DNA of 30,363 bases from a virus, in IMG/VR virus record IMGVR_UViG_3300006904_000018, positions 1 through 30,363 of that record, one strand, 5' to 3'. Below the pieces are notes generated by a model that saw only the letters and a program-made list of their open reading frames with translations, made no database searches and had not been told where the DNA came from. Each line of letters begins with the position of its first letter. Positions within the stretch are counted from its first letter, which is position 1. The translations under genes and the position numbers were made by a program. Positions 23,823-25,866 of this stretch are shown piece after piece.

Positions 23823-24212
23823 GTGAGCCCCGTTCTTTCAGCCGATCAGGTTGCGGAACGCTGGGCCGTGTCCAAGAGGACGGTCCTGGCGATGGTGAAG
23901 GATGGCCGGTTGCGGAAATTGCCCATCGACAGGCCAGTACGTATCCCGCTGGAGGCGGTCATCGAGGTCGAGCGGGGAGGCCACAATGGAGACGATGCGG
24001 GGCCGGAACGAGGGAACGATCTTTCGCCGGAAGGCCACCGGCCAGTGGGTCGCCCAGGTCACGCTGCGGAACGGCAAGCGGGTCAGCCGCTATGCGAAGG
24101 ACCGGGACGGGGCGAAGGCCGAGCTCGCCGAGCTGCTCAGGCTCCGCGATGCCGGCGCACCCATCACCGACCGCATCCGGCTTGGAGCGTTCCTCGAGCG
24201 GTGGGTGAGTGA
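23823..24212 (+). CDS. Excisionase-like HTH protein (long reading)
   Basis: The first 50 residues form a MerR/excisionase-type HTH (LSADQVAERWAVSKRTVLAMVKDGRLRKL, then PVRIPLEAVIEVE). The gene lies just before the integrase, and Xis proteins commonly sit there. The rest of the 129-residue frame overlaps the integrase start region by over 200 bases and reads as Arg/Pro-rich filler, so the functional part is probably residues 1-60. GTG 23823 abuts the methyltransferase stop. Confidence 0.7.
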   Translation: MSPVLSADQVAERWAVSKRTVLAMVKDGRLRKLPIDRPVRIPLEAVIEVERGGHNGDDAGPERGNDLSPEGHRPVGRPGHAAERQAGQPLCEGPGRGEGRARRAAQAPRCRRTHHRPHPAWSVPRAVGE

Positions 24213-25194
24213 TGGTCATTCCCTGGCTCCTTCGACTCACCGGAAGCACGAGGCGGCGATCCGCGTCCACATCACACCGAGGCTGGGGCATATTCGACTG
24301 TCCGATTTGTCACCGATCGATGTCAACCGAGCTCTGGACGACGCCAGAGGGTCCGGGCTACATCCTCAAACTGTCCGACACTTGCGGGCCACGCTGCGTC
24401 GCGCGCTTGCGGACGCTGTTCGAGATGGGCTGGTCACCCGAAACGTCGGAGCCCTCAGCCGCGCTCCGGTACTTCACCGACCCGAGCGACCCATCCTCGA
24501 CGCCAACCAGGCCCGCATCCTCATCGGAGTCGAAAGCCGCTACGCGCCGCTCTGGACGATCCTCGTGACCACCGGATTGCGGATCTCCGAGGCGTTGGGG
24601 CTGTTGTGGTCGAGCGTTGAACTGGGAGGGAACGATGTTCAGGACGTGGAGTTGCGGTCATCTGACGCAGGGATCGGAGGAGCACGACGTCGAGGAATGC
24701 GAGCGGCGCCGGGTGTCGCGAATCGTGGACGCGCTCAGCCGTCCCTCACTGTCCGTCACCAGCTCGCAAGGGAAAACGGCGAGTGGGTCCGCCGTCCTCC
24801 GAAAACCGCGAAAGGGCGAAGGACGATCCCGCTGACGCCGCTAGGGGTAGAGGCCCTCAGACGACAGCGGGCCCAGCAGGACGCGGATCTCGGGACCCGA
24901 CCCCGCCCCATCGACGGCCTCGTCTTCACCTCGCCCACGGGCAACCCGCTCCACGAGACGAACGTCGTCAAGTACCTCGCGCGGGACCTAGCGGCGGCGG
25001 GTCTGCCGCACGTTACCTGTCACGACCTACGCCATAGCGCGGCGACCGTCCTCTACTCGTCAGGCGTCGACCTGGAGACGATCGCGGACATGCTGGGTCA
25101 CTCGTCCTCGCGTGTGACCGCCGATCTTTATAGACACCGGGCAGCCAATCTCCAGGCGGACGCTGCCGCACGAATGCAGGAGGCGCTTGGATGA
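23986..25194 (+). CDS. int: Tyrosine integrase
   Basis: The phage integrase that recombines attP with a host tRNA gene. ATG 23986 is chosen over earlier in-frame starts because GGGGAGG (23974-23980) precedes it; the product is 402 residues. The N-terminal arm-binding region (GTIFRRKATGQWVAQVTLRNGK) and core-binding domain (SLAPSTHRKHEAAIRVHI) are present. The catalytic set is complete: R199 (TTGLRISEALGLLW), K in PPKTAKGRR, H346-x-x-R349 (HDLRHSAATVL), LGHSS and Y382. Between ELGG and SLTVRHQL lies a roughly 38-residue insertion (about 24625-24745) that is not integrase-like. It ends by overlapping the GIY-YIG gene, and attP lies 570 bases downstream. Confidence 0.95.
   Translation: METMRGRNEGTIFRRKATGQWVAQVTLRNGKRVSRYAKDRDGAKAELAELLRLRDAGAPITDRIRLGAFLERWVSDGHSLAPSTHRKHEAAIRVHITPRLGHIRLSDLSPIDVNRALDDARGSGLHPQTVRHLRATLRRALADAVRDGLVTRNVGALSRAPVLHRPERPILDANQARILIGVESRYAPLWTILVTTGLRISEALGLLWSSVELGGNDVQDVELRSSDAGIGGARRRGMRAAPGVANRGRAQPSLTVRHQLARENGEWVRRPPKTAKGRRTIPLTPLGVEALRRQRAQQDADLGTRPRPIDGLVFTSPTGNPLHETNVVKYLARDLAAAGLPHVTCHDLRHSAATVLYSSGVDLETIADMLGHSSSRVTADLYRHRAANLQADAAARMQEALG
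24635..24835 (+). CDS. Nested small ORF inside the integrase insertion
   Basis: A second frame with ATG 24635 preceded by GGGAGGG a few bases upstream. It codes MFRTWSCGHLTQGSEEH, then DVEECERRRVSRIVDALS. By my reading its first 37 codons end mostly in G or C, whereas the integrase frame over the same bases has about half, so the alternate frame has more of the genome's coding signature. After about residue 38 the frame becomes filler as the integrase frame resumes. It may be a captured small zinc-like gene or an overprinted gene; it could still be chance. Confidence 0.4.
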   Translation: MFRTWSCGHLTQGSEEHDVEECERRRVSRIVDALSRPSLSVTSSQGKTASGSAVLRKPRKGEGRSR

Positions 25195-25760
25195 GCGATC
25201 ACCCGACCTCGCTCTACAGGTTCTTCGATGCTAAGGGCCGGCTGCTCTACGTCGGAATCACGTCCATCGGTCCGGGACGATGGGTATCCCACGAGAAGAT
25301 CCAGCCGTGGTGGCCGCTGGTTGTCCGCAGTGAGGTCACGCACTACCCAGATCGAGGCACGGCAGCCGCAGCGGAGCGTGTCGCGATCGTCATGGAGAAG
25401 CCGCTCCACAACACGATCTTCGCCGAGCCTCGTGGCCCCAAGCAGCGGGATAGAACCCGAGGACGGAACCACACCGGGAACCTGACGCCGCGGGAGGATG
25501 GGTGGTGGCAGCTCTCCGCGTCCACACCGAAGCGGCGCTTCACCACTCAATACCACGACGAGGCCGAGGCACGGCTGATCCTCGCTGCGCTCGTGGGGCG
25601 TCGAGTACGGCCAGCTGTTCGCGACCGCGCCATCGCAATCCTCATGGCTGGCGAGGCGTGGGACCCGGATTCCCGACCAGGTGCTGAGCGTTCCGCTGCG
25701 TCGGAGGTTCCGAAGTTCGGCAGCCAGACCCTCGAAGGGTCGATTCCGAGTTCAGAATGA
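25191..25760 (+). CDS. GIY-YIG-like nuclease
   Basis: A 189-residue protein with the GIY-YIG layout at the N-terminus: SLYRFFDAKGRLLYVGIT (about 7-24), then RWVSHEK near 30-36, an AAAERVAIVMEKPLHN segment (E/N ligands), and a basic tail. The first tyrosine of the signature pair is present as LYRFF and the second as YVG. It lies between the integrase and attP, an unusual site, and its stop ends directly at the attP core. It might be a mobile or immunity nuclease. The start overlaps the integrase stop. Confidence 0.75.
   Translation: MSDHPTSLYRFFDAKGRLLYVGITSIGPGRWVSHEKIQPWWPLVVRSEVTHYPDRGTAAAAERVAIVMEKPLHNTIFAEPRGPKQRDRTRGRNHTGNLTPREDGWWQLSASTPKRRFTTQYHDEAEARLILAALVGRRVRPAVRDRAIAILMAGEAWDPDSRPGAERSAASEVPKFGSQTLEGSIPSSE
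25727..25741 (+). repeat. Small hairpin near the GIY-YIG stop
   Basis: GACCCT (25727-25732) and AGGGTC (25736-25741) form a perfect six-base stem with a three-base loop, inside the last codons of the GIY-YIG gene. No T-run follows. It may be a weak terminator or an attP arm element. Confidence 0.3.
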
Positions 25761-25815
25761 TGGAGGCGACGAGCGGATTCGAACCGCTGAATAGAGGTTT
25801 TGCAGACCTCCCTCG
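25761..25815 (-). other. attP core: 3' half of tRNA-Cys(GCA)
   Basis: Reading the minus strand, the sequence gives an anticodon stem GAGGT/ACCTC around loop CTGCAAA (anticodon GCA), a five-base variable loop, a T-arm AGCGG-TTCGAAT-CCGCT, acceptor strand CGTCGCC, discriminator T and encoded CCA at 25763-25761. The matching 5' acceptor strand (GGCGACG) and a D-arm are absent upstream, so this is not a functional tRNA gene. It lies 567 bases after the integrase. It is the expected attP: integration would rebuild a full host tRNA-Cys at the integrase side. Confidence 0.9.
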
Positions 25816-25866
25816 GACGGACGTTCGCAGCATCTCACGGTCAACGGCGACTGTAGATGACGCTCC

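Follow-up and report, generated by a model that had tools for sequence, protein, structure and literature searches.

For phage lysis genes, out-of-frame nesting of a small gene within another gene is a well-documented arrangement, and automatic annotation normally retains one frame only. The best-studied parallel to the locus described here is the lambda Rz/Rz1 pair, in which Rz1 is embedded in the +1 frame of Rz and the mature part of Rz1 lies over a mutationally silent stretch of Rz (PMC5295617). Besides, a review of overlapping genes reported that young overlapping genes evolve fast (PMC8227390). We found no report, in the literature searched, of a nested out-of-frame gene inside a tyrosine integrase.

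We analyzed a virus record of 30,363 bases (hereafter the window), which carries terminase, portal and tape-measure genes. An earlier inspection of its letters (the original prediction) had pointed to an insertion in the integrase that looked like a small gene in another frame, and named three possible explanations, namely capture of a mini-gene, overprinting and a chimeric assembly. With modest confidence, we favor a small gene that is read out of frame within an ancestral insertion of a tolerant integrase loop, in a nested arrangement similar to that of lambda Rz1 in Rz. Like Rz1, such a gene would be small and modular, would start independently in the +1 frame of its host gene, and would have its nested part placed where the outer protein tolerates change. 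Unlike in the lambda pair, the outer gene codes for an integrase, we noticed neither a lipobox nor a signal sequence, the nested ORF extends beyond the tolerant segment, and both expression and function of the product are putative. Similarly to viral overprinted genes (PMC8227390), the candidate protein is small, de novo-like, fast evolving, devoid of remote homologues and located over a disordered stretch; unlike in those genes, the room for it seemingly came from an insertion, not from mutated codons, and homologues are without the segment. Features of the locus are listed in Table 1.

Table 1. Features of the integrase locus in the window and the evidence for each.
Feature	Position	Strand	Evidence
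HTH_17 (excisionase-like) gene overlapping integrase start	23823..24212	+	PF12728, E 8e-7
Tyrosine integrase, 402 aa	23986..25194	+	Pfam, conserved columns, AF2, Foldseek
Internal Shine-Dalgarno GGAGGG, 4 nt before ATG 24635	24625..24630	+	Conserved in L198; anti-SD duplex
Insert in integrase, ~residues 216-251, 36 codons/108 nt	about 24631..24738	+	Absent from homologues; same-site insert in L198
Candidate nested +1-frame ORF, 66 aa, MFRTWSCGHLTQGSEEHDVEECERRRVSRIVDALSRPSLSVTSSQGKTASGSAVLRKPRKGEGRSR	24635..24835	+	Codon-position signature, start signal
Nested ORF tail over conserved integrase sequence (SLTV..TIPL)	24739..24832	+	No extra synonymous constraint
Nuclease gene directly downstream of integrase	25191..25760	+	phrog_16880 (E 3e-19), phrog_3312, phage endonuclease families
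tRNA-Cys (gca), complete, downstream of integrase cassette	25761..25837	-	ARAGORN

Integrase and its insert

The outer gene is a tyrosine recombinase (phage integrase), for which catalytic residues, Phage_integrase domain and fold match were all present. It matched PF00589 (E 4e-22) and PF14659 in Pfam, and all catalytic residues (R199, K273, H346/R349, H372 and Y382) were kept in conserved alignment columns. AlphaFold2 gave a well-formed fold (pLDDT 86.9), and Foldseek comparison of this model with Tn1549 Int (PDB 6emz) and lambda Int (PDB 1z1b) yielded target-normalized TM values of about 0.75-0.76 and about 0.59, respectively. Both enzymes are alike in overall fold and have about 20% sequence identity to the window integrase; neither is known to have a nested gene at this place.

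Alignment of the integrase with about 88 homologues (89 sequences in total) showed that the segment in question is real, although somewhat shorter than the approximately 38 residues (24625-24750) originally assigned to it, as the alignment gives 36. The insert is flanked by the EALGLxWxxV segment on one side and by the strand SLTVRHQL on the other, and essentially every homologue has a gap here, with the flanking residues joined directly. In distant homologues (up to ~35% identity), the strand xLxVxxQL directly followed WxDVDLxxG with no extra residues. For example, HMM matches to one homologue (G045) covered query residues 3-215 and 249-389, which were 3 nt apart in the target, and those to another (G046) covered residues 40-216 and 253-402, which overlapped in the target. 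As predicted, the insert reads as Gly/Ala/Arg-rich filler in the integrase frame, its length is a multiple of three (108 nt), and the frame is open throughout 23986-25194. In the AlphaFold2 model, residues 218-240 and 242-246 had pLDDT <50 beside a catalytic core at 90 or more, and because of this difference residues 218-246 are predicted to be a disordered loop in the integrase frame.

We also considered whether the insert could be a known kind of element. A structured RNA, mobile intron or bypassing element was rejected, as RNA folding gave z-scores near zero (+0.6 and +0.2), Rfam yielded no match at E<1 and conserved terminal repeats were lacking. An inverted repeat, GAGGGA(A)CG/CGTCCCTC, was noticed at the two insert ends (24627-24634 and 24740-24747); it is without counterpart in the second phage described below, so it is probably due to chance and was not taken to mark the ends of an element. 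No convincing match to the insert was found elsewhere in the window. A Cys-rich insertion (HGCG..CG..CP) is common to many actinophage integrases (L016, L018, L031, L049, L073 and others in our set), where it may form a small zinc-binding element. This insertion, seen for example in Mycobacterium phage Boilgate, is also found in the region of the catalytic-domain sheet, but it follows the first strand (the LTVRHQL position) and is read in the integrase frame with conserved Cys, whereas the window insert precedes that strand. Homology between the two was rejected based on the different site and frame.

A second phage with an insert at the same site

By searching with a degenerate pattern for TGLRISEALGL, we identified one further insert-bearing phage, IMGVR_UViG_3300031965_000034 (L198; 57,819 bases), from a different metagenome. 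It was picked without regard to frame composition and therefore provided an independent test of the frame claim. Its integrase is 53% identical to the window integrase over its length, and carries at exactly the same site an insert of 45 codons (135 nt) that differs in sequence. Like the window insert, it reads as Gly/Ala/Arg filler in the integrase frame and is open in that frame, with a length that is a multiple of three. Compared as DNA, the two inserts had weak but significant similarity (p 0.003-0.005), because of which they probably descend from one ancestor. Conservation of the segment in the integrase frame had been named as evidence against the original prediction; the segment is present in L198, but the integrase-frame peptides of the two inserts showed no similarity (p about 0.4-0.5), an outcome in favor of that prediction.

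The two integrases have diverged considerably at synonymous sites, with 52% of codons the same versus 41% expected at saturation, i.e., about 80% randomized; Gly codons were the same in 6 of 21 cases. Searches for closer relatives by automatically chosen peptide patterns returned only L198/L204, already known distant integrases and one Ruminococcus integrase (28% identity). Within this scope, the feature was found in two phages only, the window and L198.

Start signal and ORF in the +1 frame

The original reading of ATG 24635, the upstream GGGAGGG (24624-24630), a CGH motif and a EECERRRVSRIVDALS helix was confirmed, and all of them are in the +1 frame. In both phages this frame is opened by the start signal GGAGGGAnCGATG, a Shine-Dalgarno sequence plus ATG, in which the two differ at a single one of 13 positions; the third positions of GGA, GGG and GAT are among the 12 that match. 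The +1 reading of the L198 insert, MPLMPRRWPPELEREIQDRIYEAMRSEAVKAGLSQTMVDEVFPP..., is opened by TTTGGAGGGACCGATG, the window counterpart of which is CTGGGAGGGAACGATG. Thus, as in Rz1, a ribosome binding site and start codon of its own (GGAGGG + ATG) lie inside another gene and are conserved in L198. For the internal ATG of the window, the calculated energy of the anti-SD duplex (pairing with the 16S tail) was -10.7 kcal/mol, which places it sixth among the 290 plus-strand ATGs; values for the internal start of L198 and for the window integrase's own start were -9.8 and -10.8 kcal/mol, respectively. Such signals are rare: of the 981 out-of-frame ATGs that we counted in 193 kb of phage coding DNA, only 12 had GGAGG 4-7 nt upstream. 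In three of these 12 cases the ORF stays open for 60 or more codons, and the window and L198 ORFs account for two of them.

The +1 frame is open from 24569 to a stop at 24833-24835. Codons 1-35 of the nested ORF lie within the insert, which has no stop, and the remaining ~31 codons extend into ordinary integrase sequence and overlap the core, showing that the ORF is not a self-contained mini-gene. The ORFs are 66 (window) and 74 (L198) codons long, and both continue into the integrase and stop at the same conserved place (..RSR, TGA). A helix at residues 16-35 was predicted for the nested peptide from a two-sequence alignment (pLDDT up to about 86). The two +1 peptides showed a weak likeness that was not significant (p about 0.08; best local match ECERRRVSRIVDAL/ELEREIQDRIYEAM). 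In the overlapping tail, we detected no reduction of synonymous variation between window and L198, the same-codon fraction being 0.45 in the tail, 0.44 downstream and 0.58 upstream of the insert, which gives no visible sign of constraint on at least the last 31 residues. Because the peptides are dissimilar and the tail lacks synonymous constraint, it would be the N-terminal half that could matter if a protein is made, and this half would be evolving fast.

No homologue of the nested peptides was detected in phages, plasmids, PHROGs, Pfam or related viral records; the plasmid search used the window peptide only. A match to DUF1990 (E 0.047) was below the cut-off and was set aside. A zinc-knuckle reading of the +1 peptide (C-x-H-x7-H-x4-C) had no counterpart in L198 and was not relied on. 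The same collections yielded neither a donor gene nor a free-standing homologue for the captured mini-gene initially suggested. Capture is possible as the origin of the insert, but a donor or homologue was not detected in these collections.

Codon-position composition

We further examined codon statistics in each frame. GC content by codon position in the window insert was 0.81/0.61/0.50 in the integrase frame and 0.63/0.49/0.83 in the +1 frame; for reference, the window integrase before the insert had 0.70/0.52/0.77. The corresponding values for the L198 insert were 0.80/0.69/0.44 and 0.68/0.43/0.82. Gene mean GC3 is 0.83-0.84, as compared with 0.50 (window) and 0.44 (L198) for the inserts read in the integrase frame. 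The claim that third positions are richer in G/C in the +1 frame was thus correct (0.83 versus 0.50), but the signal is modest when the window is considered alone: 2.6-4.1% of 108-nt windows in this phage's genes were as extreme as its insert, whereas the fraction of gene windows as extreme as the L198 insert was 0.2-0.5%, these statistics being based on overlapping windows and two genomes. For GC1-GC3, the fractions were 2.8% (window) and 0.5% (L198), and equal GC at all codon positions was rejected for both inserts (p 0.024 and p 0.0015, respectively). Frame statistics on short stretches call for caution, as the codon score for one part of the integrase core (24274-24418), where nothing suggests an insert, also favored +1. 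Codon evidence from the window by itself is marginal and would not suffice to carry the original codon argument. Since the same pattern is stronger in L198, the +1 signature is more than chance.

Gene neighborhood

The HTH_17 gene upstream of the integrase has the same arrangement in L198. The nuclease gene at the other end of the window integrase is GIY-YIG-like, judging from its N terminus, and an Endonuclease VII gene (PF02945; 1138-1677, minus strand) is found in its place in L198. A tRNA-Cys is also present at a similar place in L204/L198 (L204 6903-6973, minus strand), and in both phages it has phage-like genes on both sides. It is probably either an attachment site or a phage-borne tRNA, the former being plausible. 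In addition, we observed that the L198 nuclease ends in DAAERMQEALA, a near-copy of the integrase C terminus EAADKMQEALG, as if nucleases had been swapped at the integrase end by recombination.

Discussion

Our observations are consistent with the following scenario. An insertion in the common ancestor of the window phage and the L198 phage would have added codons to an integrase surface loop that immediately precedes the first strand of the catalytic-domain sheet, and the extra DNA would be read in two frames. Read in the integrase frame, it forms a Gly/Ala/Arg linker, which alignment and model show to be an insert with predicted disorder, and should leave the enzyme intact and presumably active. 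Read in the +1 frame, it carries a Shine-Dalgarno sequence with an ATG and has a coding-like composition; a small nested gene would begin here, have a helical N-terminal part and end inside the integrase coding sequence, and the small protein may be translated from the integrase mRNA. We infer its translation, function and mode of origin from these sequence features; as to its role, our guess is a fast-evolving accessory protein made together with the integrase. An out-of-frame gene is favored because the start signal is conserved and rare and because the +1 frame has coding-like composition in both phages, and the L198 data argue against neutral filler. The out-of-frame gene of the original prediction is thereby partly supported, in its start and composition, but not in its peptide, which differs between the phages, nor in its tail, which appears unconstrained.

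We consider this reading somewhat probable, and it is favored over both a captured start with no function and a plain integrase loop. The former is rather unlikely. In this case, the ancestor's integrase would have received the 5' end of another gene (ribosome binding site, ATG and N-terminal codons) in the wrong frame; the integrase frame alone would matter today, and the +1 signature would be a fading relic. Such a capture accounts for the +1 composition, the start signal at the left edge, the lack of a stop in the insert, the unconstrained tail and the absence of peptide similarity beyond chance. However, a relic would hardly be expected to show a strong +1 signature in both inserts with synonymous sites about 80% randomized, or to keep its start signal at 12 of 13 positions; besides, the donor gene was not found in the collections searched.

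A further possibility, which we regard as rather improbable, is that, in this integrase lineage, the loop before the first catalytic-domain strand serves as a cargo slot with a conserved internal ribosome binding site and start codon, the +1 N-terminal domain being exchanged or evolving very fast. If so, the small protein encoded within the integrase gene would differ from phage to phage.

It is doubtful that the insert serves the integrase frame only, as a flexible loop perhaps involved in protein contacts or protein level, with the +1 frame being a by-product of GC-rich DNA. Both inserts (108 and 135 nt, each a multiple of three) are indeed open in the integrase frame, this GC-rich genome has many long +1 ORFs that are spurious, and the frame reversal in the integrase core shows that such composition may occur elsewhere. 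However, the integrase-frame peptides of the inserts are dissimilar, their GC3 in that frame is far from the gene mean, and a strong start signal is conserved. Even less probable is a role of GGAGGG and the out-of-frame ATG in translational control, by ribosome pausing or internal initiation lowering full-length integrase, with no protein product: it would fit a conserved strong SD-like site inside a coding sequence that opens a non-conserved peptide, but leaves the +1 composition over 35-45 codons in both phages unexplained. Finally, the originally suggested assembly chimera, or a sequencing artefact, might have been invoked for a single contig with a segment whose frame signature is unlike the rest, but it is ruled out by L198: this independent contig comes from another metagenome, and its 53%-identical integrase is interrupted at the same site by an insert that begins with the same 13-nt motif (the +1 Shine-Dalgarno and ATG), the frame being kept in both.

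If the nested out-of-frame gene is real, it would indicate that overlapping genes can arise by insertion into a tolerant loop instead of by overprinting of existing codons. In that case, annotation would also have missed a small protein that is produced alongside the enzyme of lysogenic integration.
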